Shown here piece after piece: positions 2,574-58,414 of a DNA stretch of 64,000 bases. The translations under genes were made by a program, and so were the position numbers. Under the pieces are notes generated by a model, which did no database searches, was not told the origin of the DNA, and was given only the letters and a program-made list of their open reading frames with translations. How positions within the stretch are numbered: the first letter of the stretch is position 1; the number at the start of each line of letters is the position of its first letter. This stretch comes from Teretinema zuelzerae. Lineage in GTDB: Bacteria > Spirochaetota > Spirochaetia > Treponematales > Treponemataceae. Location: positions 744,001 to 808,000 of the forward strand of contig NZ_JAINWA010000003.1 of NCBI RefSeq assembly GCF_021021555.1. The letters are read 5' to 3'.

Positions 2574-2613
2574 CTGCATAAATATTGACTTTTACAGAAT
2601 TCGCTCATACTAT
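2574..2613 (+). promoter_or_regulatory. Sigma-70-type promoter of the HEPN-like/acyl synthase operon
   Basis: TTGACT (2585-2590) and TACTAT (2608-2613) are 17 bp apart. The predicted start of transcription is at or next to the ATG at 2620 and no ribosome-binding site is visible, so the message may be leaderless. The 11-mer CTGCATAAATA (2574-2584) abuts the -35 element and recurs at the promoter of the NifA-like gene (6962-6972). Confidence 0.5.
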
Positions 2614-2619
2614 ACCGGT

Positions 2620-3018
2620 ATGGCTAGTGAACTTGCAGACTGGAGAGCCTTTCTTGAGGAAGGCCGTAGGTATCACCGGACAGCGCAAGGAGGCGTTCGC
2701 CGGCCGGATGTATTCACCCCCGCGATTATCCAAAATATCGCGGCGATGGGTATCGAAAAGTATTTCATGTCTATCTTTATGAAGCGAGGAACCCTGCCCC
2801 GCAACCACACCATGACCGATCTGCTTGAAGAAGCGGCCTCCTTCATGATTATCCCCGGCGATGTGGAGGCGACGCTGCGGTACATGGATTCGCTTCAGCG
2901 AATCTGCTCCATGGACGATTTCCAAATTACGAGTCCGCGAACGGAAGACGTGCCACGCTTCATAGAAGCCCTCGATTCGCTCGCCGCGATGGCGGGCGTG
3001 CAACCAGAAGACGCATGA
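2620..3018 (+). CDS. HEPN-like small protein, function unknown
   Basis: A 132-residue, mostly helical soluble protein of unknown function. The stretch FTPAIIQNIAAMGIEKYFMS followed by KRGTLPRNHTMTDLL resembles HEPN-fold proteins, and R-x6-H in RGTLPRNH matches the family's Rx4-6H motif. HEPN proteins are often RNases or nucleotide-binding partners, but some only scaffold, so no activity is claimed. The stop overlaps the start of the acyl synthase (ATGA at 3015-3018), which couples the two genes. The context of molybdenum uptake, a LeuA/NifV enzyme and a NifA-like regulator suggests a role in nitrogen fixation. Confidence 0.6.
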   Translation: MASELADWRAFLEEGRRYHRTAQGGVRRPDVFTPAIIQNIAAMGIEKYFMSIFMKRGTLPRNHTMTDLLEEAASFMIIPGDVEATLRYMDSLQRICSMDDFQITSPRTEDVPRFIEALDSLAAMAGVQPEDA

Positions 3019-4526
3019 ACGGCCGCCGGATCGCCGTTCTTGACACCACGCTCAGGGACGGCGCCCAGGCTGCGGGAGCGGGTTTTACCCTCGCGGAAAA
3101 ACTCGCCCTCGTGCAGGCTCTCTCCCTCCTCCGCGTAGACATCATCGAAGCAGGCTTTCCCGCCGCATCCCGCCGCGAATTTGAGGCGTGCTCGCAAGCC
3201 GTTTCGCATCTGGACAGCCGGTCCGGCGCGAAACCTGCCGTAGCGGTCATGTGCCGCTCGCTTCCGGAGGACATCGTCCGGTGCGGCAGGGCCCTCGGCG
3301 GAGCCGAAAACGGAATCATCCACCTCTCGCTTCCGGTCAGCGATCTGCATATGCAGGCCAAGTTCAAAGCCTCCCGGCGGGACATGCTGAAAAAGGCGGA
3401 GGACGCGATAGCTTTCGCGCTCGGCCATGCGAACGCGATAGAAATGGGAGCCGAGGACGCGACGAGGGCAGACCCCGAATTTCTCGCCGACTACTGCAGC
3501 TGCGCGATACGGGCAGGAGCGGGAATCGTAAACATCGCAGATACGGTCGGAATATCTACGCCCCGAAAAATGCAAAAGCTGATCGCTCGTCTGCTCGAAC
3601 GGGTTCCGGGGTTCGCACGAGGGGAAGCTGTTCTTTCCGTACACTGCCATAACGATCTGGGACTCGCGACGGCCAATACTCTTTCGGCGATAGAGGCGGG
3701 ATGCGGGCAAATCGAAACGAGCCTGCGGGGAATCGGAGAGCGGGCGGGCAACGCCGCTTTGGAGGAAATCGCCGCCGTCATCTGCGCGAACGCCTCCGCC
3801 TTTCCCATCGAGACGAACCTGAATCTCTCGATGCTCGCGGAGGCCAGCGCCCTGGCGGGAAAAATCTCGGGCCTCGGCATACCGCCGTTCAGGGCTGTCT
3901 GGGGATCGACCGCTTCAGCCCACGCTTCGGGAATACATCAAAGCGGAATCCAAAAAGACGCTAACACCTACCGGGCCTTCCAAAGCGAGCTGCTCGGATT
4001 TTCCGGCAGCCGCACGGCAATCTCTCAGTACTCCGGAAAAGCGGGACTCGCCGCGTTTCTAAAAGAATATGCCGCGATCGATCTTTCTCAAGATCCCGAC
4101 GGCTCTTCTGACGCGGCGACTCAGATTCTCCGCCGGATAAAAAAAGAAGGGGCCGAATGCGGACTCGCCGAAATCCTCGGCGAACTGCGGCATGCCGGCC
4201 TCTACGATCTGCCGGTTCTTGCCGCGGAAGTCGCGGAAGACGCCCGTACCTGCGCACAGAAACCGATTCCCGCTCTGAAACAAACAATCGATGCTATGCG
4301 GCGCGATATCGAAAACTCGGGAGCGGATCTGCCGGAGCTCTCTGATTATTCGATCATCCAGGGGCCGCTCAAGGCGAGGGTATTTCTTGAATTCAGGCAT
4401 CCCTGCCGGCCGGAAGAAACGCTCGCCTTCGAGAGAACGGGCGAGGACGCCATGGACACTGTTCGACGCTGTTTCCTCGACGCGGCTAATTCGACCAGGG
4501 CCCTGCGTTCAGCGCAAGGCTCATGA
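3015..4526 (+). CDS. LeuA/NifV-type acyl-CoA:2-oxoacid synthase (homocitrate or 2-isopropylmalate synthase)
   Basis: This enzyme condenses acetyl-CoA with a 2-oxo acid. The family core is clear: LDTTLRDGAQ at residues 8-17, AGFPAASRREFEA near 47, the metal-binding HCHNDLGLA near 210, and GIGERAGNAALEE near 240. After the barrel there is a C-terminal domain of about 120 residues of the LeuA dimer type, which makes the protein 503 residues and longer than a classic NifV (~380). Sequence alone leans to LeuA, while the neighbours (modABC, NifA-like, Nif11-like) favour homocitrate synthesis for the nitrogenase cofactor. The 3' end overlaps the convergent acetyltransferase gene by 41 bp. Confidence 0.8.
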   Translation: MNGRRIAVLDTTLRDGAQAAGAGFTLAEKLALVQALSLLRVDIIEAGFPAASRREFEACSQAVSHLDSRSGAKPAVAVMCRSLPEDIVRCGRALGGAENGIIHLSLPVSDLHMQAKFKASRRDMLKKAEDAIAFALGHANAIEMGAEDATRADPEFLADYCSCAIRAGAGIVNIADTVGISTPRKMQKLIARLLERVPGFARGEAVLSVHCHNDLGLATANTLSAIEAGCGQIETSLRGIGERAGNAALEEIAAVICANASAFPIETNLNLSMLAEASALAGKISGLGIPPFRAVWGSTASAHASGIHQSGIQKDANTYRAFQSELLGFSGSRTAISQYSGKAGLAAFLKEYAAIDLSQDPDGSSDAATQILRRIKKEGAECGLAEILGELRHAGLYDLPVLAAEVAEDARTCAQKPIPALKQTIDAMRRDIENSGADLPELSDYSIIQGPLKARVFLEFRHPCRPEETLAFERTGEDAMDTVRRCFLDAANSTRALRSAQGS

Positions 4527-5003: not shown

Positions 5004-5324
5004 CTACGCCCGGGCAGAACAGGAAGGCCCGCAGGACGCGGAGCAGGCGGCGCATGAGCTTGCGCTCGCCGCCCGGCCGCATGAGCCGTCCATCGCCTGG
5101 AACCATCCCTTCAATTCGTCGAGTTCCTCGGCCTCTTCGGCGTCGACGGCGCGGAGCTTCAAGCTGGAAAACGCGTCTGCGAGCTCATGATCCAGAAACC
5201 GATAGCCCGAGACGGCAAGCCAGAAACGGAATCCGTCGGCTCCGTCCGCGTTATACGCCTCGCCGCGGAAAGCCGCGTCGGAACGGCACCTCGCAATGCA
5301 TCTAAAAGCGTCAATCATCGACAT
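5004..5324 (-). CDS. Nif11-like protein with cysteine-rich tail
   Basis: A 106-residue protein in two parts. Residues 1 to about 80 resemble the Nif11 domain: a short helix after MSMIDAF, then [14 protein letters not shown], which matches the family's GY-F-x-x-x-E-L signature, then the acidic helix [13 protein letters not shown]. The last 26 residues after AMDG are small residues with five cysteines ([21 protein letters not shown]). Nif11 proteins occur in nif clusters with unknown function, and related domains serve as leaders of modified peptides. The start overlaps the end of the NifA-like gene, by 14 bp from ATG 5324 or 8 bp from ATG 5318, so the two are coupled. The family call is by eye. 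Confidence 0.6.
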
Positions 5325-6876
5325 CTTCCGCCCCCTTGTCTTTCAATCCGTATTTGACGACGCGCAATCCCATCATGCGCTCGGTGATTCCCAGATTAGC
5401 CGCCGCGCGAGACACGTTTCCGCCCGTTCGCTTCAATTCCTCGCGAAGTATTTCCCGCTCGACCGATTCCATCGTTTCCTGAAGTCCGCCGGTTCGGGTA
5501 TTCGGATCGCGGCGAGTCTTTTGCAATCCGGCCGGCAGATGGTAGCTGTGAAGATTTCCGTCGGTGGATAGGATGACGGCGCGCTCGATGCAGTTCTCCA
5601 GCTCGCGCACATTGCCCGGCCAATCGTACGACATCAACAGATGCGTGGCCGGAGCGGAAATGGAACGTATCTTCTTTCCATGCTCTTTGGAGAACCGTTC
5701 GATAAAATGATTCGCGAGCAGCAAGATATCCGTCTTCCGTTCGCGCAACGGCGGAATAACCAGCGGAAACACGTTTATTCTATAGAAGAGATCTTCGCGG
5801 AAGCGTCCTTCGGCGATAAGCTTCTCAAGGTTCCGGTTGGTAGCGGCGATGATCCGAACATTCACCCGAATGGTGCGGCATCCGCCGACGCGTTCGAATT
5901 CGCGCTCCTGCAGGACGCGCAGAAAGGTCGCCTGTACGGCCATCGGCATCTCGCCGATCTCGTCCAGAAAAATAGTGCCCCCGTCCGCAAGTTCGAACCG
6001 GCCTTTGCGCGCGTTCACTGCGTTCGTAAATGCTCCTTTTTCATGGCCGAAAAGCTCGCTCTCGATCAAGCTTTCGGGAATCGCCGCGCAATTGAGCTTT
6101 ATAAAAGGGGCCTCCGCACGGGGAGAATTATAATGAATCGCGTGGGCAATGCGCTCCTTCCCTACCCCGCTTTCTCCCAGGAGCAAAACGGTCGCCCCGG
6201 TCGAACTGACCTGGTCGATCTGTTGATACAAGAGGCGCATAATCTTTGAATTCCCGATCACGCTGGAAGGCCTGTACTGCGTCTGGAGCGCCGCCTGAAG
6301 CCGCTCGTTCTCTTCGCGCAGCTTGACCATCTCCTCCTCGCGCGCCTGCCTGAGCCTGACGGCCTGGCTAATCGACGCCGCGATGATCATCATGAGCTTC
6401 ATGATTCCGTCGAGGGTATTGTCCGGATTATAGGGAATGTCTATGCCGATGGCTCCGATTGCCTCGGTTCCGGCCTTGATCGGCACGCACACGAAGGAAA
6501 TGCTTCTGGTATCCTGATTTCTCCGCGCGCCCGTCCTGTCCAGAAAGTCCGGCTCGTCCGCTATCCGCGGAATGGCCACCGGGTTCCCCGTCTCGATGAC
6601 CCGCCCGATGATTCCTTCCCCCGGCTGATAATGGCCTTTCTCGATCTCTCCCATGCCGTAGCCCCAGGCTTCTCCGATCGTGATGTCTCCGCGGCTCCGG
6701 TTCAAAATGGTGATGATGCCCCGCTGGATGCCGACATGCCGGCCCATCGTCTCCATTACCGAATTGAGAACGGTTTCTATATCCAGGGACTGGGAAAGGA
6801 TTGCGCTGATTTCATAGAGGAGGCTGAGTTCGCACGAACAATGCTCAAGGCGGGACATACACTGCAAACCGGTCAT
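5311..6876 (-). CDS. NifA-like sigma-54-dependent transcriptional activator
   Basis: A 521-residue enhancer-binding protein that would open sigma-54 promoters, here probably for nitrogen fixation. Domains in order: a GAF sensor (about 20-170), a coiled linker ([17 protein letters not shown]), a AAA+ domain (about 205-435) and a Fis-type helix-turn-helix at the C-terminus ([16 protein letters not shown]). Walker A GESGVGKE, Walker [12 protein letters not shown] and the arginine-containing [13 protein letters not shown] are intact. The sigma-54 contact loop reads GAFTNA instead of GAFTGA. No cysteine cluster typical of oxygen-sensitive NifA lies between the AAA+ domain and the helix-turn-helix. 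AGGAGAG precedes the ATG at 6876. It is first in an operon with the Nif11-like and GNAT genes. Confidence 0.88.
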
Positions 6877-6944
6877 CGACTCTCCTCTGGAGATTCGGCC
6901 CTACCGGCTCGCGCAGGACAATCCGGTATACCAGATCATCCTGA

Positions 6945-6985
6945 ATATTTATTCATAAATACTGCATAAATACGCTCTTTGTCAA
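6945..6985 (-). promoter_or_regulatory. Candidate promoter and operator of the NifA-like gene
   Basis: On the minus strand TTGACA (6980-6985) is followed 18 bp later by TATTTA. The spacer contains TATTTATGCAG, the complement of CTGCATAAATA seen at the divergent operon promoter at 2574. Next to it lies a 7-bp inverted repeat with a 2-bp centre, TATTTAT-TC-ATAAATA (6946-6961). This looks like an operator, but no regulator is identified. Confidence 0.4.
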
Positions 6986-6998
6986 GGGCAGGAAGGGA

Positions 6999-8250
6999 TA
7001 CGCGCACTACCTTTCACTCGCCGCAAGCGCGCCACGCTCACCCGCGCACCCTACCTTTCACTCGCCGGAAAGCGCGCCACGCTCACCCGCGCGCGCACTA
7101 CCTTTCACTCACCGTAAGCGTGCCACGCTCACCCGCGCGCACCACCTTTCACTCGCCGGTAAGCGCATCACGCTCAATCGCGCGCACTACCTTTCACTCG
7201 CCGCAAGCGCGCCACGCTTTCCGCGCGCGCACTACCTTTCACTCGAGTGTAAGCGCACCACGCTTTCCGCGCGCGCACTACCTTTCACTCGCCGGTAAGC
7301 GCATCACGCTTAATCGCGCGCACTACCTTTCACTCGAGTGTAAGCGCGCCACGCTTTCCGCGCACCATACCTTTCACTCACTACAAGCGTACCACGCTCA
7401 ATCGCGCGCACTACCTTTCACTCGCCGCAAGCGCATCACGCTCAATCACGCGCACTACCCTTCACCCCCGAGTAAGCGCTCCACGCTCAATCGCGCGCAC
7501 TACCTTTCACTCACCGCAAGCGTGCCACGCTCACGCGCGCGCACTACCTTTCACTCAGCGCATGCGTACCACGCTCACCCGCGCGCACTACCTTTCACTC
7601 GCCGGTAAGCGCATCACGCTCACCCGCGCGCGCTACCTTTCACTCGCCGGTAAGCGCATCACGCTCACCCGCGCGCACTACCTTTCACCCGCCGCAAGCG
7701 CATCCCGCTCGATCGCGCGCACTACCTTTCACTCATCGATAAGCGCATCACGCTCTATCGCGCGCACGACCTTTCACTCGAGTGTAAGCGCATCACGCTC
7801 AATCGCGCGCGCTACCTTTCACTCATCGCAAGCGTGCCACGCTCACCCGCGCGCACTACCTTTCACTCGCCGCAAGCGCGCCACGCTCACCCGCGCACCC
7901 TACCTTTCACTAATCGATAAGCGCGCCACGCTCAATCGCGCGCACTACCTTTCACCCGCCGCAAACGTGCCCCGCTCACCTGCGCGCACTACCTTTCACT
8001 CGCCGGTAAGCGTATCACGCTCAATCGCGCGCACTACCTTTCACCCGCCGCAAGCGCGCCACGCTCACCCGCGCGCGCTACCTTTCACTCGCCGTAAACG
8101 TGCCACGCTCACCCGCGCGCACGACCTTTCACTCGCGGGTAAGCGCATCACGCTCACCCGCGCGCGCACTACCTTTCACTCGCCGGTAAGCGCATCCCGC
8201 TCACCCGCGCGCACTACCTTTCACTCACCGGTAAGCGCGCCACGATCGAT
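6999..8250. repeat. 28-copy, 44-47-bp GC-rich tandem repeat array
   Basis: I count 28 consecutive imperfect units between the NifA-like promoter and the end of glnK. Conserved blocks are CGCGCACTACCTTTCACTC and a dyad AGCG-N5-CGCT (for example AAGCGCATCACGCT). Between them lie two short variable segments, GCCGGT, GCCGCA, GAGTGT, ATCGAT or ACCGCA before AAGCG and AAT, CCC or TTCC after CGCT. Unit lengths of 44, 45, 46 and 47 do not keep a reading frame, so the long open frames here (6979-7608 and 7562-8266) are composition artefacts. The spacers are far too short for CRISPR. Function unknown. Confidence 0.9.
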
Positions 8251-8262
8251 CGCGAAATACGC

Positions 8263-8604
8263 TTAGCCGATCGCTTCGCTGCCGCGTTCGCCGGTGCGGA
8301 TGCGTATGCATTGCTCAAGGGGCATCACCCAGATCTTGCCGTCTCCGATGCGGCCGCTGCGGGCGCCCTTGATTATGGCGTCCACGGTCACGTCGACGAA
8401 CTCGTCGTTCACGGCGATATCAAGCCTGATCTTCTTAAGCAAGTTTATCTCGGTTATGGCTCCGCGGTACTCTTCGGTGAACCCCGCCTGCTTGCCGCAG
8501 CCCTGGGCCGGAGTAACGGTCATCTTGGTGACTTTCGCTTCCACGAGCGCCTTCTTCACATCGTCCAGCTTCTGCGGCTGGATAAGGGCAACTATCAGTT
8601 TCAT
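8263..8604 (-). CDS. glnK: PII nitrogen regulatory protein GlnK
   Basis: A 113-residue PII signal protein that binds ATP, ADP and 2-oxoglutarate and gates the ammonium channel encoded immediately upstream. The start [17 protein letters not shown] at 8604 is chosen because GGGAGGAG precedes it; the frame extends 14 codons further but that part is not PII-like. Visible family features are the T-loop start ([15 protein letters not shown]), the B-loop ([17 protein letters not shown]) and the C-terminal IRTGE. The T-loop keeps Tyr in EEYRG but the usual uridylylated Tyr51 is replaced (RGAITEI rather than RGAEYVV). This argues against GlnD-type control. It lies 16 bp after amtB, in the same operon. 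Confidence 0.93.
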
Positions 8605-8620: not shown

Positions 8621-9919
8621 TCAATCGATAATCTGGAAGCCGGCATAGGCTTCGGATGCGTGTTCCGAACGGTCGAGTCCGGTCAACTCTTCTTCGCGCG
8701 TAACGCGGATGCCGACGGTGTATTTCAGGACGAGCCACACGGCCAACGCGACCGCGAAAGAGAAACCGGCGACTGAAACGACGCCGATCGACTGTTTCGC
8801 CAGCAAGCCGAATCCGCCTCCGTTCAAGAGGCCGTTCCCCGTGGCGGTTCCGGTAATCCCGTCAATCGCAAACAGACCGACTGCAAGGGTGCCCCACATG
8901 CCGTTCATCAAATGCACGGAAAGCGCTCCGACCGGATCGTCGAGCTTGCGCTTATCGAAAAAGAGAACGCTGAACACGACGAGCACGCCGGAAACGAGGC
9001 CGATCATCGCCGCTCCGCCGACATCGACGAAGGCGCAGCCGGCCGTGATTCCCACGAGGCCGGCGAGAGCTCCGTTGATGATCATCGAAAGGTCGGGGCG
9101 TCCCAGCAGGAACCAGGAAGCGATCGTGGAGGAAAGAATCGCGACAGCAGCGGAAGTGTTGGTCGTCACCGCGATGTGCGCGATGGCGGAACCGTCGCCC
9201 ACAGCCATAGTCGATCCGGGGTTGAAGCCGAACCAGCCGAACCACAGCACAAGACCGCCGAGCGTCACCATAGACATATTGTGTCCGAGTATCGGAACCG
9301 TCGAACCGTCGGCCCGGTACTTGCCGTGGCGGGGTCCGAGAACCATTACGCCCGCGAGCGCCGCCCAACCGCCGACCGAATGCACTACCGTCGAACCGGC
9401 GAAATCGAAAAAGCCGAGGTTCTGCAGCCATCCGCCGCCCCATATCCAATGCCCGGTCACCGGGTACATGACCGCGACCAGAATAAACGCGAACACGATG
9501 AAGGAAGTGAATTTGATCCGTTCGGCGACGGCCCCGGACACGATGGTCGCCGCGGTTCCCGCGAACACGAGCTGGAAAAAGAATTTCGCCCAAAAGGGAA
9601 CCCGGGCCCACGAAATCGCGCCGAAACCCTCGTCCACGCCGCCGTTGGCGAAGAACAGATTCGTCAAACCGACGAAGGCGTTGCCGTCGCCGAACATCAA
9701 TCCCCACCCGATGAACCAGAAGGAGAGGGAGGCGATCGCGAACACGATAAAGTTTTTGGAAAGAATGTTGACCGCGTTTTTGCTGCGGCACAGGCCGGTC
9801 TCGACCATGGCGAAGCCGAGATTCATAAAGAAAACGAGGAATGCCGACAACAGCACCCACAGAGTATCCAGTCCCATGATCAGGGTTTCGACTTGCGACA
9901 AGCCGCCGACTGCGTCCAT
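8621..9919 (-). CDS. amtB: Ammonium transporter AmtB
   Basis: A membrane channel of 432 residues that conducts ammonium. The start [11 protein letters not shown] at 9919 is preceded by TTTGGAGG; the longer open frame upstream is not family-like. About eleven membrane segments are visible. Recognisable Amt signatures include [20 protein letters not shown] near the start, [19 protein letters not shown] in the centre, and [18 protein letters not shown]. The pore histidines are present in VVHSVGG and in [10 protein letters not shown]. There is no separate cleaved signal peptide before the first helix. Pairing with glnK is the classical arrangement for ammonium sensing, and it sits next to the nif-related genes. 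Confidence 0.95.
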
Positions 9920-9999
9920 AGGAACCTCCAAAGAAAGTGATCCTACGTCATTGTAGTCGGCGCCGCACCGCTCTCGAAACGGCAACCTGAATTGCGCAA

Positions 10000-10029
10000 A
10001 ACATAGCCTGTTCGCCCGCCGTGAGTCAA
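10000..10029 (-). promoter_or_regulatory. Candidate sigma-70 promoter of amtB-glnK
   Basis: On the minus strand TTGACT (10024-10029) and TATGTT (10000-10005) are 18 bp apart, about 80 bp upstream of amtB. No convincing sigma-54 -24/-12 element was found in this interval. Confidence 0.4.
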
Positions 10030-10081
10030 GATCTCTAAAACATGAAAAAAAAGAGGCAGGACGGGCACCGGCGGGAGAGAG

Positions 10082-10125
10082 CAAAAAGTTCGGAGCCCCC
10101 TCAACCGAAAGATCAAAGGAGGCTC
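10082..10125 (-). terminator. Possible terminator after tag
   Basis: An imperfect inverted repeat (GAGCC at 10093-10097 with GGCTC at 10121-10125, extended by C-G pairs) is followed on the minus strand by a short T-run (10083-10087). Confidence 0.4.
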
Positions 10126-16733: not shown

Positions 16734-17729
16734 ATGCAGATCGATATTCAGGGTCTTACAAAGACATATACGACATGGAACCGGGGAAGCACGTTTTCCG
16801 AGGTGCTAAAAAGCCTCGTACGGAGGGAGAAAACCGATGTTCATGCCCTCAAGGGAATCGACCTCTCGATCGATTCGGGCGAGCTGGTCGGATTTTTAGG
16901 ACCGAACGGAGCCGGAAAATCCACGATGCTCAAAATACTCACCGGAGTCCTCTATCCGACTGCCGGCAGCGTCTCGGTCATGGGCGTATGCCCGTGGAAG
17001 GACAGAAAAAAATACGTCGCGGGAATCGGCGCGGTTTTCGGCCAGAAATCCCAGCTGGTCTGGGATATACCGCCGGCGGATTCCTTCATGATGAACCAGG
17101 CGATCTACCGCATACCCGACGCCAGGTTCAGGCGGACGATGGACAGGCTCGTCGATATGCTTTCCGTGCGCGATCAAATGAAGCAGCCGACGAGGAATCT
17201 CTCCCTGGGAGAGCGCATGAAATGCGAGTTCATCATGGCAATGCTTCACGAACCCCGCATTGTGTTCCTCGACGAGCCGACCATCGGCCTCGATGTGATC
17301 GCCAAGGATAAAATCCGCGCCTTCATCCAGGAGATGAATCGGGACGGAGTCACCTTCATTCTCACCACCCACGATCTCGACGACGTCGAGCGTCTCGCGC
17401 AGAGAGTTATCGTGATCAATCACGGAAGCATCGTCTTCGACGACGGCATATCCGCTCTCCGGCAGCACTTCGGCGCGAAGAAAATCATTACGGCATCCTG
17501 CGCCGCCCCGTGCTTCGTTTCAACCGAGGATGGCGTTTCCGCGCTACCATCCGGAGTCTCGCTTCTCTCCCGCCTCTCCGAATCCGACGTAGTACTCGAG
17601 TGCGACACCTCGGTCATGGATCTCCCCTCCCTCATCCGCCTCGTTTCCGAAACCTTCGGGCTTCGCGATCTCGTCGTAGAGGATATTCCCATAGAGACGG
17701 TGATCAAGGAACTGTACGCGAAGGAATAA
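16734..17729 (+). CDS. ABC exporter ATP-binding protein (ABC-2/DrrA-like)
   Basis: A 331-residue ATPase that would energise the two preceding permeases. Walker A is GPNGAGKS near residue 60, the signature is LSLGERMK near 160, Walker B is RIVFLDEP near 180 and the switch histidine is TTHDLDD. The signature lacks the second glycine (LSLGE rather than LSGGQ), which is common in this subgroup. The C-terminal ~90 residues form a DrrA-like extension. The gene ends directly in a terminator whose stem begins in the stop codon region. Confidence 0.9.
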   Translation: MQIDIQGLTKTYTTWNRGSTFSEVLKSLVRREKTDVHALKGIDLSIDSGELVGFLGPNGAGKSTMLKILTGVLYPTAGSVSVMGVCPWKDRKKYVAGIGAVFGQKSQLVWDIPPADSFMMNQAIYRIPDARFRRTMDRLVDMLSVRDQMKQPTRNLSLGERMKCEFIMAMLHEPRIVFLDEPTIGLDVIAKDKIRAFIQEMNRDGVTFILTTHDLDDVERLAQRVIVINHGSIVFDDGISALRQHFGAKKIITASCAAPCFVSTEDGVSALPSGVSLLSRLSESDVVLECDTSVMDLPSLIRLVSETFGLRDLVVEDIPIETVIKELYAKE

Positions 17730-18164
17730 AAAAAGACCGACCGGCGATGCCGATCGGTCTTTTGTAAGTCGGGCAAGGGGGAATTGCCTTCCGTTCGCCG
17801 ACTTCCTGTCGCCTCTCTCCAGGCCGCCCTCGCCGCCTTCCGCCGCCGTCCCTGGCGGCTCTTCCTCGCCTTCGCTCGGCGGCGGCTCACGATCAATTCC
17901 CCCTGGCCCTGGGAATAAAAAAAGACCGACCGGCGATGCCGATCGGTCTTTTGTAAGTCGGGCAAGGGGGAATTGCCTTCCGTTCGCCGACTTCCTGTCG
18001 CCTCTCTCCAGGCCGCCCTCGCCGCCTTCCGCCGCCGTCCCTGGCGGCTCTTCCTCGCCTTCGCTCGGCGGCGGCTCGCGATCAATTCCCCCTGGCCCGG
18101 GGAATAAAAAAAGACCGACCGGCGATGCCGATCGGTCTTTTTTAAGTCGGGCAAGGGGGAATTG
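17725..18164. repeat. 189-bp tandem unit made of a terminator and a tRNA-Pro 3' fragment
   Basis: The 189-bp unit starts at 17725 and 17914, and a partial third copy starts at 18103. Each full unit contains the bidirectional terminator, then AAGTCGGGCAAGGGGGAATT (the 3' end of tRNA-Pro in reverse), about 110 bp of GC-rich DNA, and an inverted copy CAATTCCCCCTGGCCC. Each unit can therefore fold into a long hairpin closed by tRNA acceptor and T-arm sequence. Copies 1 and 2 differ at only a few bases. Minus-strand open frames here (17420-18209) simply read through the repeats. Nothing else is seen between 17765 and 18138. Confidence 0.85.
17730..17764. terminator. Terminator after the ABC exporter operon
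   Basis: The stem AGACCGA...TCGGTCT (17734-17760) with a GAT loop is flanked by A- and T-runs, so it can act in both directions. The same hairpin recurs at about 17923 and 18112 as part of the 189-bp tandem unit; the last copy lies directly behind the tRNA-Pro end and is probably its original terminator. Confidence 0.8.
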
Positions 18165-18194
18165 AACCCCCGACCTCTTGGTCCCGAACCAAGC
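18139..18194. other. attL of the genomic island (56-bp tRNA-Pro segment)
   Basis: These 56 bases are identical to 60256-60311, the 3' half of tRNA-Pro(CGG) from the anticodon stem to the trailer. To the right the tRNA sequence stops and AT-rich island DNA begins. To the left follows the tRNA's own terminator, as expected for the chromosomal side of an insertion. Confidence 0.9.
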
Positions 18195-18327
18195 ATTCCA
18201 AGTTGTCACCCTTTAGCATCGCTTAGCTTGTCGCTCGCTGCCTTCGCTAAATTATTACGGTGTAAAGACTTATTCTTCCACCGCTTAGTATACTTTAGTG
18301 CCCTTTAGTTTTTCAGTCAAGTTTTTC

Positions 18328-30711: not shown

Positions 30712-31446
30712 TTATTTCTTTCCTCCGCCCATCATGCCGCCGCGATTTCCATTCATCATGCCGCCTTGATAACCGCCCATCATACCACGGTCGAATCCCG
30801 AGAACTCATACGTTTTTCCCTTAATCGTTGCCTTGGTCACCGAGAAGTATGGCTGACCGTTGGCGTTCGTTGATGAAAACTCATAGCCTTCAAGTTTAAG
30901 GGTCGAACCGGCTCTAATATCATTATTATAGGCGTAGTAATAAAAATTCGGAAAATCTAGTATATATACGGTGGTTCCGGATTTAATAGCGGGTTCATCA
31001 TTCACAAACGAGAGTTTCCCTTCCAGCGTCTTTTTTGTTGCCGCAGTCTGTAATCCGGGTGCACCCCACATCATGCCAAATCGACCCATACCCCACATAC
31101 CGCCCATCGTAACGCCGTTGAGTCCACCTTTCAGGAGGTATTGCTGTCCCAGATCGGTATGGAATGCATTGAGCTGCGCCGAACCATCGCCACCGAGCAT
31201 CTTGTCCATCCTGTCATGCATATCGCTATTGCCGATTATTTCTCCCATCACGGCATCGCCCAGTTCTTCCAATACGCCCGGATCAACCTTATCAACGGTG
31301 ACTTGGTCTAAAGTCGTTACATTTTGTTGCTTTTCGATATCACCAACGATCGTGTCCAGAGAGCGAGGTTCAGCCATTCCCATTTGAGCGAATATGCCTA
31401 TCCCGAGGCCCAATGAAAGGAATATAACCAGAATTCCCTTTTTCAT
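30712..31446 (-). CDS. Exported methionine-rich protein, probably copper-related
   Basis: A 244-residue protein with a signal peptide (MKKGILVIFLSLGLGIGIF) and a C-terminal Gly-Met-Asn tail (DRGMMGGYQGGMMNGNRGGM). A second Met-rich patch MGGMWGMGRFGMMWG lies mid-protein. Methionine clusters like these bind Cu(I) in known periplasmic copper proteins; the role here is inferred from that and from the neighbouring CopA operon. The segment GKLSFVNDEPAIKSGTTVYI with LEGYEFSS resembles a small beta-barrel, but no family is recognised. The start at 31446 has GGAG upstream. A nearly identical 3' fragment of the gene lies at 53614-53955. Confidence 0.65.
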   Translation of the reverse strand: MKKGILVIFLSLGLGIGIFAQMGMAEPRSLDTIVGDIEKQQNVTTLDQVTVDKVDPGVLEELGDAVMGEIIGNSDMHDRMDKMLGGDGSAQLNAFHTDLGQQYLLKGGLNGVTMGGMWGMGRFGMMWGAPGLQTAATKKTLEGKLSFVNDEPAIKSGTTVYILDFPNFYYYAYNNDIRAGSTLKLEGYEFSSTNANGQPYFSVTKATIKGKTYEFSGFDRGMMGGYQGGMMNGNRGGMMGGGKK

Positions 31447-46297: not shown

Positions 46298-48535
46298 TTA
46301 TTTCGGGTCTAATCTCAAAAGCATTGCATTGATCGCAACAATAACGGTCGATAAGGACATGAGGACGGCGCCGAAGGCCGGACCCAAGGTAATGCCGATA
46401 GGAGCAAGGAGGCCAGCAGCAATTGGAATCGCGATAAAATTGTAGCCTGCTCCCCATACCAAGTTTTGTTTCATTTTACGTGTCGTCTTGTTTGCTAACT
46501 CGATAAAGGATTCAATATCCCCTGGATCAGACTGAGTAAGGATAATATCCGCAGAATCCAAAGCTACTTGCGTTCCAGCTCCGATTGCAATACCTACGTC
46601 TGCCAAGGCAAGGGAAGGTGCGTCATTGACCCCGTCTCCCACCATGATAACCGTCTTGTTTTGGTTTTTCATGGACTCGACCAGCTTGTACTTATCTTCC
46701 GGAGATTGATTGGCTTGGTATTGAATACCTAGAACTTCTGCAACTCCTTGTGCAGCTTCCTCGTTATCACCAGTAGCCATGAGTGGTTCAATTCCGTATT
46801 TTTTCAGCACCTCGATCAAGTTTCTGCTGGTTTCTTTCAGTTCATCTCCCAATGCGACAGCGCCGATTGCTTCATTATTTTCTACAAGGATACTTAAAGT
46901 AGCGCCTTTCGGAATATCCATACGCAATGCTTTTCCGTATGCCTTTTGGCTGATTAATTGATAGTGGTGGCCGTTCGCCTCCCCTTCTATTCCTGCTCCC
47001 GAAACGATTTCAATGGAGTCAAAGGAAACTGACTTAATGCCTTTTGCTTCAGCGTGGTTCACAATCGATTGGGCAATCGGGTGACTGGAGCCCGCCTCTA
47101 TACCCGCCAACAAGCCTGTGATTTCTTCTTCAGAATATTTATCACTCAAAACAGTGACGTCCAACACTTTAAATTCACCAGTTGTTAAAGTACCTGTTTT
47201 ATCCAATACCATAACATCCGCTTTAGTAGTTAATTCCAAAGCTTCTCTATTTTTAACCAGTAATCCTCGGCTTGCACCCAAACTAGTACTACGTGATACT
47301 ACCAAGGGAATAGCAAGACCCAAAGCATGTGGGCAGGCAATAACTAACGTAGTCACAGTAAAGATAACGGCTGTAGGTAAATCTGCAATGATCATCCAGG
47401 CTACTAGAGCGATTAAAGCTACTACAACGGCAATGTAGAACAACCAGCTAGCTACTTTGTGAGCCACATTCTCTGCTCGAGATGGTTGGCTTTGTGCTTG
47501 GCTAATTAATGTTTGTACTTGTGAGATAAAGGACTTATCCCCTGTTTCTGTTACTTCTACATATAGGACACCACTACCATTTGTTGATCCACCAATGACT
47601 TGATCTTTAACATTCTTTTCGATTGGCTTAGATTCACCTGTTAAGAGGGCCTCGTTTACACGGGATTCTCCGCGAATAATGATACCATCAGCTGGAACAT
47701 TTTCTCCTGCTTGAACACGGATAACATCTCCAACCTGAAGTTCAGACACAGGACGAGTTTCAATCGAATCATCTTCTAAAACAACATGAGCGTCTTTTGG
47801 CAATAATTCTGCTAGAGCTTTTTGCGCATCCCCTGCTTCACCCAATGCCTTCATTTCAATCCAGTGTCCTAATAACATGATTAAAAGTAACGTTGCAAAC
47901 TCAAAGAAGAAGTCCATGACATGTTCTCCGGTCACATATCGAGCGGCCACTGCGTAAACACTATAGGCATAAGAAACCGTTATTCCCAAAGTAATCAAGG
48001 ACATCATGCCTGGAGCTTTTGAATTAAACTCATCTTTCGCACCCATGTAGAATGGTTTTCCGCCATAAATGTATAGAATTGTTGCCAATACAGCTGCTAC
48101 AACGTCTGCATAAGGAAAGATGATTTGGAAAGGCAACTGAATATCCATCAAAGGAGTAATGAGCAAGATTGCAATTCCTAATGGGAGTGACTTCAAGAAA
48201 ATCTCCTTAAAGCTACCGTGATGGTGGTGGGCATGCCCTCCCATTGCGCCATGATCCATTTCACTGTGATCCATCGCACTATGGTCCATCTTGCCTTGAT
48301 CCATATTGCTGTGATCCATATTGCTGTGATCCATATTGCTGTGATCCATCTTACTGTGGTCCATCTTGCCGTGATCCATATTGCTGTGATCCATATTGCT
48401 GTGATCCATATTGCTGTGATCCATATTGCTGTGATCCATCTTACTGTGATCCATCTTACTGTGATCCATCTTACTGTGATCCATCTTACTGTGGTCCATA
48501 TTTCCATCTTTAAGATTGTTATCTTTTTTATTCAT
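46298..48535 (-). CDS. copB: CopB-type copper/silver P1B-3 ATPase, Firmicutes-like
   Basis: A heavy-metal pump of 745 residues. The N-terminus has 17 pentapeptide repeats of the MDHSK/MDHSN type, then HAHHHHGS, as a metal-binding tail. Membrane motif is CPH (ACPHALGLAI near residue 400), characteristic of CopB rather than CopA; DKTGT lies near 447 and GDGVNDAPSLALADVG near the end. The start at 48535 follows AAGGAGG. Codon use is AT-rich, unlike the spirochaete-like neighbours, and the sequence resembles enterococcal or lactobacillar CopB. It lies between 35-bp repeats among IS fragments, consistent with horizontal gain. Confidence 0.9.
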   Translation of the reverse strand: MNKKDNNLKDGNMDHSKMDHSKMDHSKMDHSKMDHSNMDHSNMDHSNMDHSNMDHGKMDHSKMDHSNMDHSNMDHSNMDQGKMDHSAMDHSEMDHGAMGGHAHHHHGSFKEIFLKSLPLGIAILLITPLMDIQLPFQIIFPYADVVAAVLATILYIYGGKPFYMGAKDEFNSKAPGMMSLITLGITVSYAYSVYAVAARYVTGEHVMDFFFEFATLLLIMLLGHWIEMKALGEAGDAQKALAELLPKDAHVVLEDDSIETRPVSELQVGDVIRVQAGENVPADGIIIRGESRVNEALLTGESKPIEKNVKDQVIGGSTNGSGVLYVEVTETGDKSFISQVQTLISQAQSQPSRAENVAHKVASWLFYIAVVVALIALVAWMIIADLPTAVIFTVTTLVIACPHALGLAIPLVVSRSTSLGASRGLLVKNREALELTTKADVMVLDKTGTLTTGEFKVLDVTVLSDKYSEEEITGLLAGIEAGSSHPIAQSIVNHAEAKGIKSVSFDSIEIVSGAGIEGEANGHHYQLISQKAYGKALRMDIPKGATLSILVENNEAIGAVALGDELKETSRNLIEVLKKYGIEPLMATGDNEEAAQGVAEVLGIQYQANQSPEDKYKLVESMKNQNKTVIMVGDGVNDAPSLALADVGIAIGAGTQVALDSADIILTQSDPGDIESFIELANKTTRKMKQNLVWGAGYNFIAIPIAAGLLAPIGITLGPAFGAVLMSLSTVIVAINAMLLRLDPK

Positions 48536-53542: not shown

Positions 53543-53955
53543 TGTGATGGATACAAGCAATCGACATATCCATCCCCTTATTTCAATTTGGAAGAATCTT
53601 GCGGTTCATGAGCCTATCGGTTCTTTCCTCCGCCCATCATGCCGCCGCGATTTCCATTCATCATGCCGCCTTGATAACCGCCCATCATACCACGGTCGAA
53701 TCCCGAGAACTCATACGTTTTTCCCTTAATCGTTGCCTTGGTCACCGAGAAGTATGGCTGACCGTTGGCGTTCGTTGATGAAAACTCATAGCCTTCAAGT
53801 TTAAGGGTCGAACCGGCTCTAATATCATTATTATAGGCGTAGTAATAAAAATTCGGAAAATCTAGTATATATACGGTGGTTCCGGATTTAATAGCGGGTT
53901 CATCATTCACAAACGAGAGTTTCCCTTCCAGCGTCTTTTTTGTTGCCGCAGTCTG
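53543..53955. repeat. Duplicate of 30639-31054 (Met-rich gene 3' part)
   Basis: About 413 bp match the first copy with only a few differences near the gene's stop. The duplication stops where IS91-like copy 3 begins, so the rest of the gene was lost. Confidence 0.9.
53614..53955 (-). pseudogene. Met-rich exported protein, truncated copy
   Basis: Only the C-terminal ~114 codons remain, from GKLSFVNDEPAIKSG to the GMMGGG tail; the stop is shifted by small changes so the tail ends KNR. The signal peptide and first half are replaced by IS91-like DNA, so it cannot be exported. The intact paralogue is at 30712-31446. Confidence 0.85.
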
Positions 53956-56888: not shown

Positions 56889-57115
56889 GTTAGTGTACAA
56901 TTCTTTCTGTAAATTGGGTTGAAAAAAGCAGGCCGATCGGGCTCAAATGGTAAGTGACCAAACCAACCATAAGGAGAACCCGATGGCCTACGAATCAGAG
57001 TATACACTTTTGGAGCAAGTGATCCAGATGCTGGCAGCGAATGGGGACAATAAATTTTCTCGTGTTATCGAAGTGGTCGTCAATGAGGCCATGAAGATCG
57101 AGCGAGCAAAGGCTC
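56889..57115 (+). mobile_element. IS256-family left-end fragment
   Basis: These 227 bp are identical to 57116-57342, the left end and first ~45 codons of the complete IS256 element that follows. It looks like a second copy of the element whose remainder was lost or replaced. Confidence 0.9.
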
Positions 57116-58414
57116 GTTAGTGTACAATTCTTTCTGTAAATTGGGTTGAAAAAAGCAGGCCGATCGGGCTCAAATGGTAAGTGACCAAACCAACCATAAG
57201 GAGAACCCGATGGCCTACGAATCAGAGTATACACTTTTGGAGCAAGTGATCCAGATGCTGGCAGCGAATGGGGACAATAAATTTTCTCGTGTTATCGAAG
57301 TGGTCGTCAATGAGGCCATGAAGATCGAGCGAGCAAAGGCTCTCAACGCCGAACCATATGAACGCACGGAAGAGCGTACTGGGCATGCCAATGGATTTAA
57401 AGACAAGACGCTCAATCTTGCGACCGGGAAAGTCCTCTTGAAAGTACCACAAGTTCGCGGGATGGAGTTTTATCCCAGCTGCATCGAGAAAGGCATGCGC
57501 AGTGAGCGTGCTCTCAAGCTCGCCATCGCCGAAATGTATGTCAAAGGAGTAAGTACCCGCAGGGTCTCGGATATCGTCGAAGTTCTTTGTGGCACCGAAG
57601 TCAGCTCGTCCCAGGTCAGCAGGCTGGCAAAGGAACTCGATGAAGAGATTACGTCTTGGAAGGCGCAGCCTGTCGGACAGATTCAATACTTGGTACTTGA
57701 TGCGACCTATGAATCGGTTCGCGTCGGTTCCCAGGTGGTCAAGCAGGCGCTTCTAGTGGCTATTGGCGTTGATTACAGCGGGAATCGGTATATTCTTGAC
57801 GCCGAAGTCGCGAACAGTGAGGCAGAGGTAAACTGGCGTTCCTTTCTCGAGGGTCTCGTACGACGAGGGATGCACGGCCTGCGAATGATCACCAGTGATG
57901 ACCACTCAGGACTGCGCGCTGCAATCGATGCTGTCTTCCCTGGAATTCTGTGGCAACGCTGCCAGTTTCATCTGCAGCAGAATGCCCACTCCTACGTCAC
58001 GAAAAAAGATGACATCCCGCTGATAGCCGCTGATATTCGGAAGGTGTTCAATGCACCTGACCGCGAGAACGCGGAACGATATTTGCAACAGCTCGTTGAA
58101 AAATATCAAAAAACCCATCCGCATTTAGCGGCTTGGGCCGATGAGAATATACGGGAAGGATTGAGTGTATTCAACATCCCGGAGAATCACAGGAGGAAAA
58201 TGCGAACATCGAATCTGGCAGAGCGCCAGATGAAGGAGATCAACAGGCGAACGAAAGTAGTAGGCGTTTTCCCGAATGCGGCCAGTTTACTTCGTCTCGC
58301 GGCTGCCATGCTGATCGAGCAAAATGACCAATGGCAGAATGATAAACGGTACTTGCCGGAGTCAAACGATCGACCTGCTTTGAACGAAATTTACAGAAAA
58401 AAGGTTGCATAATC
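57116..58414 (+). mobile_element. IS256-family insertion sequence, 1299 bp
   Basis: Imperfect terminal inverted repeats of ~27 bp are visible: GTTAGTGTACAATTC with TTTCTGTAAATT on the left, and the complement of AATTTACAGAAAAAAGG... on the right. No target duplication is readable because the left flank is another IS256 fragment. The right end splits a small island gene. Confidence 0.85.
57210..58412 (+). CDS. IS256-family transposase
   Basis: A DDE transposase of 400 residues. The start MAYESEYTLLEQVIQML follows AAGGAG. Visible signatures are YLVLDATYESVRV for the first Asp region (near residue 160), MITSDDHSGLRAAIDAVFPG for the second and the conserved CQFHLQQNA region. The C-terminal helix with NLAERQMKEINRRTKVVGVF carries the catalytic Glu. 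The gene appears intact and its end overlaps the right terminal repeat. Confidence 0.95.
   Translation: MAYESEYTLLEQVIQMLAANGDNKFSRVIEVVVNEAMKIERAKALNAEPYERTEERTGHANGFKDKTLNLATGKVLLKVPQVRGMEFYPSCIEKGMRSERALKLAIAEMYVKGVSTRRVSDIVEVLCGTEVSSSQVSRLAKELDEEITSWKAQPVGQIQYLVLDATYESVRVGSQVVKQALLVAIGVDYSGNRYILDAEVANSEAEVNWRSFLEGLVRRGMHGLRMITSDDHSGLRAAIDAVFPGILWQRCQFHLQQNAHSYVTKKDDIPLIAADIRKVFNAPDRENAERYLQQLVEKYQKTHPHLAAWADENIREGLSVFNIPENHRRKMRTSNLAERQMKEINRRTKVVGVFPNAASLLRLAAAMLIEQNDQWQNDKRYLPESNDRPALNEIYRKKVA

Follow-up and report, generated by a model that had tools for sequence, protein, structure and literature searches.

A 28-unit tandem repeat array beside glnK in Teretinema zuelzerae probably belongs to a genome-specific non-coding satellite family

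The window analysed, a 64,000 nt stretch of the Teretinema zuelzerae genome (contig NZ_JAINWA010000003.1, positions 744,001 to 808,000), contains a tandem repeat array, A1, that probably belongs to a genome-specific family of non-coding satellites (minisatellites) and is REP-like in its position. The 3.62 Mb assembly (three contigs) of this spirochaete, which has three genes of the FlaA family (none in any of the 14 control genomes), carries at least nine related intergenic arrays (A1-A9) with periods of 19-45 bp, those other than A1 having 7-27 units each. The properties of a satellite were taken as a minimum of four tandem copies of a 10-200 nt repeat, several similar arrays in one genome, a non-coding nature and restriction to one or a few species. 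A1 consists of 28 units of 44-47 bp; a homology search with A1 recovered A2 and A3, and a model of A1 recovered A2, A3, A4, A6 and A8; the periods are variable, mostly not multiples of three, and the arrays often lie between two stop codons. A 32-position model (E ≤ 0.001) matched one of the 294 genomes of the order, this genome, in a search whose stricter filters can miss weak matches.

A1 occupies window positions 7009-8260 (unstranded), as located by a unit-start pattern, ACC(T/C)TTCAC, which occurs first at 7009 and last at 8216, confirming the original prediction of a 28-copy array between a NifA-like gene and glnK. Tandem Repeats Finder (TRF) gave a score of 1424 over 7001-8244. The predicted unit of 45 bp was close, although 44 bp is the commonest length among the 27 complete units (44 bp in 13, 45 bp in 11, 46 bp in one and 47 bp in two). 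Each unit contains the core CGCC(GGTA/GCA)AGCG-N5-CGCT-N4-CGCGCG, present in all 28 units with small changes only, and a constant outer block, CTACCTTTCAC. The dyad AGCG-N5-CGCT occurs once per unit, the first at 7026-7038 and the last at 8234-8246 (unstranded), and its constancy was correctly anticipated, with both arms exact in 24 of the 28 units and a single mismatch in the remaining four. The expected linkage between the variable segments was seen for GGT with xATC (7/8 versus 4/20 units, Fisher p = 0.002) but was not significant for GCA with R-CC (8/10 versus 8/18, p = 0.11). Two plus-strand open reading frames (ORFs) of 209 and 234 aa cross A1 through shifting frames only; as the unit length is mostly 44 bp and variable, no frame is kept and the array is non-coding, in agreement with the original prediction, and an Rfam search gave no match within A1. 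Its regular alternation of constant and variable segments resembles a CRISPR array (identical repeats with unique spacers of ~25-70 nt), an identity rejected here, as it had been in the original prediction, because the variable segments are a few bases long and recur between units, and unique spacers are absent.

All of the genes flanking A1 are on the minus strand. A glnK-like P-II gene (8263-8604), assigned by a P-II family match, has its stop codon ~20 bp from the array, and upstream of it is an amtB-like ammonium transporter gene (8621-10084, minus strand), identified from its translation and its position beside glnK and with an uncertain start codon. On the other side lies a NifA-like regulator (5311-6876) with GAF, sigma-54 activator and Fis helix-turn-helix domains, for which the best model was nifA at 518 bits, slightly below the 529-bit cut-off of that model; a search for this protein in named genomes returned distant homologues only. 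Its start codon is ~130 bp beyond A1, and the intervening array-free, AT-richer stretch (6877-7008, minus strand) is presumed to be its promoter region; a TTGACA-like hexamer was seen there by eye, and a sigma-70 scan of the stretch gave no full match.

Two of the related arrays were found by homology search with A1, namely A2 (C1:47.6-48.3 kb, units of 39-41 bp) and A3 (C3:906.9-907.6 kb, units of 38-42 bp); what they have in common with A1 is mainly the core, the outer blocks being different, and A3 carries a five-unit higher-order repeat (permutation p < 0.001), a mark of duplication in blocks of several units. The remaining arrays were found by sampling of 20-kb stretches and a core search, and have periods of 20/40 bp (A4), 19 bp (A5), 20 bp (A6), 19/36 bp (A7), 19 bp (A8) and 20/39 bp (A9). 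Most of the nine have a GC-rich core made of AGCG/CGCT half-sites. Membership of the family was tested using a weight matrix trained on A1 alone and scored against dinucleotide shuffles of each array; A2, A3, A4, A6 and A8 scored above the 99th percentile of the shuffles, A9 was borderline, A5 and A7 were weak, and neither unrelated coding arrays nor arrays of other species gave a signal. A1-A4, A6 and A8 are thus one family, and A5, A7 and A9 are probably members by resemblance. The search of the genome for single units, proposed in the original prediction, yielded no excess of dispersed copies by either model or patterns: the core is present in arrays only, with singles at control level.

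All nine arrays adjoin at least one gene 3′ end. A4-A9 lie in convergent gaps that they nearly fill from stop to stop, as for A9 (2592-3171, stops at 2586 and 3173) and A8 (2528-2855, stops at 2513 and 2864; coordinates within the sampled stretches), A1-A3 follow a 3′ end between codirectional genes without reaching the next start, and none of the nine is in a divergent gap. Mechanical ORF calls in the sampled stretches gave a background of 47 convergent, 41 divergent and 144 codirectional gene pairs (n = 232), against which six convergent arrays in nine has a probability of ~0.003, with the qualification that A1-A9 were not all found without bias. An unselected 760 kb contained four intergenic arrays, namely A4, A5 and two whose 22-bp units are unrelated, and each of them was convergent. 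The GC skew of the samples, examined for a replication-strand bias, was too noisy to place the origin or terminus. The neighbouring genes are varied and include those for an MCP chemoreceptor, EngB, HisF, a MATE transporter, an amidohydrolase, RimK-like and AAA proteins, and AraC, ROK and LacI regulators. Because related arrays adjoin such unrelated genes, A1 is not a glnK or nifA element, and the link to these genes implied by the original prediction does not hold.

Outside this genome, a DNA search of 58 relatives gave no match to the array, and neither the core nor a 17-bp consensus was enriched in 11 genomes of the same genus. An A1-type array was not found at the glnK loci of six same-genus genomes, the array side of one locus (L119, genome G001) being covered by the TRF scan only. 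At another of these loci (genome G006, a different species of the genus) an unrelated 19-bp palindromic array, CACCCCGCCGGGGTG, with a period of ~20 bp, lies downstream of glnK (L121 1868-2390); on either strand, ~97% of shuffles fold less well than its consensus. Apparent core matches in a further genome (G005) proved to be single matches with no array, and a viral origin was rejected after IMG/VR gave scattered single pattern matches only. Related genomes carry arrays of their own kinds, and the unit appears to be specific to this lineage. The original prediction had been made to depend on a conserved dyad in relatives; across species no such dyad was found, whereas across the arrays within the genome it is conserved.

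Non-coding satellite families are reported to be rare in prokaryotes, and in a survey of 261 species (Subirana and Messeguer 2019, PMC6749651) Leptospira interrogans and Methanocella conradii were the only two with families of long non-coding repeats. A1-A9 resemble these satellites (PMC6749651), which have units of 37-69 bp, in being several scattered, related, non-coding and species-specific arrays, and L. interrogans, like the host here, is a spirochaete. They differ in that the period varies between arrays (19-45 bp), with mainly the half-site core shared, and in the strong preference for convergent gaps seen here; the likeness to the Leptospira families is one of description. As a satellite family in a second spirochaete, the arrays would offer a tractable case for studying the origin, spread and tolerance of satellites in bacteria, and their notable traits are the placement almost exactly between convergent stops and the hypervariable spacers inside conserved half-sites. 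The case is also a warning against taking an array of this kind for a regulatory site of its neighbours. The BOX elements of Streptococcus pneumoniae are intergenic modules with a tandem unit of ~45 bp. The arrays here are far longer (28 units), and no terminal modules like boxA or boxC were seen. A 45-bp Streptococcus family is also listed in the satellite survey, as Fam_32_45_5 (PMC6749651).

For the satellite family we envisage that an ancestral unit of ~20 bp (CACGCTTACCGCCAGCGnn) arrived at several loci, where it was amplified by unequal recombination or replication slippage, with one or several units involved per event, and that each locus later homogenised its own outer block. Arrays would survive where their cost is lowest, between 3′ ends without promoters, and a putative factor may also recognise the unit, either in the DNA or in the form of a short hairpin, as the conserved half-sites and drifting spacer suggest. 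Adjacent units of A1 resemble each other no more than units far apart do (permutation p = 0.95), which argues against plain local slippage and means that either age or short conversion events between units must be assumed. For the arrays, no mechanism of transposition was found. Loss of the SbcCD hairpin nuclease was ruled out as a cause by the presence of SbcD, the match to which (G000:C3:539459-540352) is in two pieces of a single 819-aa frame, separated by an additional ~145 bp that is also in frame; SbcD of genome G005 is similarly split.

The alternatives that best survive are those that assign the half-sites a function. The dyad arms of A1 vary by 0.10 bits compared with 0.70 bits for the spacer, and across A1, A2 and A3 the arms vary by 0.08-0.12 bits against 0.70-0.90 bits for the 5-nt spacer (permutation p = 0.008, 0.007 and 0.003, respectively), nearly all positions of A2 being invariant save the spacer. 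In A6 the variable spot likewise lies between AGC and CGC, where 13 different spacers of 5-7 nt occur over 24 units. The conserved arms and hypervariable spacer of A1-A3 suggest that the half-sites are under constraint, for which the best argument is that the pattern recurs in separately homogenised arrays, and such a degree of order would not be expected of a wholly neutral satellite. The arrays could thus be binding platforms for a dimeric DNA-binding protein (nucleoid-associated, gyrase-like or an insulator) that reads AGCG/CGCT, acting as 3′-end barriers or supercoil sinks, a reading that also accommodates their placement between convergent genes. We nevertheless regard it as unlikely, as the gap between the arms is not constant (5 nt in A1-A3 and 2 to ~7 nt in A6-A8), periods of 19, 20, 40 and 45 bp lose helical phase, there is no candidate protein and the core is absent from relatives that have the same genes. 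Of the dimeric-protein array proposed in the original prediction, the constraint on the arms therefore stands, but the regular spacing does not extend across the arrays. A broader version, to which we attach a similarly small likelihood, is that the arrays form a 3′-end boundary system, in which a putative lineage-specific factor reads the half-sites whatever the spacer between them and a dedicated mechanism has spread the arrays between loci; if so, arrays amplified between convergent genes would absorb supercoiling or stop read-through.

The other function raised in the original prediction, a structured RNA from the minus strand, fared worse. If the minus strand were transcribed together with glnK, the array could form a predicted chain of hairpins that protects or processes the mRNA; both genes flanking each of A1-A3 are on the minus strand, and the minus-strand unit can pair GGUGAGCGU with GCGCUUACC, with G.U where the plus strand has A.C. 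However, mutations in the arms show no compensatory changes or covariation, pairing outside the 4-bp core is as frequent as the shuffles predict or is broken in A2, and the folding of consensus units is ordinary, with z-scores between -2.2 and +0.8 and mostly within 1.3 of the shuffles. The excess of minus-strand G.U pairs is at least partly a matter of composition, as it is expected from an A+C-rich plus strand and is also seen at a sterically unpairable position (offset 5). A hairpin-chain RNA is accordingly a distinctly improbable explanation.

REP/BIME elements (PMC3733652, PMC2817692) share with A1-A9 short GC-rich palindromic units located at the 3′ ends of genes, where neighbours are codirectional or convergent, and they too sometimes form tandem arrays. 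A family of this type, mobilised by a RAYT (Y1) transposase, would account for the short GC-rich dyad units and for their position, since the gaps occupied are those described for REPs (PMC3733652) and all nine arrays are at 3′ ends, and visual inspection showed a GGT(N)AG motif, similar to the GTAG tag, beside the A1-A3 units. However, the sole Y1_Tnp gene of the genome is in the his operon with no unit beside it, there is no excess of dispersed single units, the tag is not constant, in contrast to the GTAG/CGTC tag of REPs, and the palindrome is weaker, with arms of 4 bp. Mobilisation by a RAYT is thereby largely refuted, and we give it hardly any credence. Weakest of all is a role in nitrogen control, with A1 as a cis-regulatory array dedicated to glnK or to the NifA-like gene; this reading has only the position of A1 in its favour and is almost certainly wrong, given the related arrays at MCP, engB, hisF, MATE, amidohydrolase and LacI-type genes, and the six same-genus glnK loci that have no A1-type array, one of them with the unrelated 19-bp array instead.

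This genome has a general tendency to expand short GC-rich repeats, as indicated by in-frame 18-bp arrays inside genes and by one perfectly identical 22-bp array. The latter consists of 10.5 copies of CTAGGCGGAGCCTTGGCCGGGA with 100% identity (L302 8890-9121; G000:C3:1168890-1169121) and lies in a convergent gap, where it begins 3 bp past a stop codon; from its sequence it would either have expanded very recently or have been strongly homogenised. The in-frame arrays are at L234 10904-11182 and L228 17224-17548; (G/D)GSLHA repeats split an EarP-like rhamnosyltransferase, and a Gly/Gln/Ala-rich array (GGGLAQ-like, ~18 repeats) lies in a long fused Ecf-type ABC/transporter ORF of 655 aa. The window contains further repeats. 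At 17723-18164 a 189-bp block is present in 2.3 copies, each with a terminator-like hairpin (AAAAAAGACCGACCGGCGATGCCGATCGGTCTTTT), and the blocks run into a weak tRNA match (18147-18212), a tandem duplication of a tRNA 3′ region. At 48252-48502 there are 16.7 copies of a 15-bp unit (TGATCCATATTGCTG), which, being a multiple of three, probably encodes a five-residue repeat. A 24-bp repeat with the consensus CCGCCCATCATGCCGCCGCGATAA is present in 2.5 copies at each of 30725-30783 and 53630-53688, and TRF detected an exact 227-bp tandem duplication at 56889-57342.
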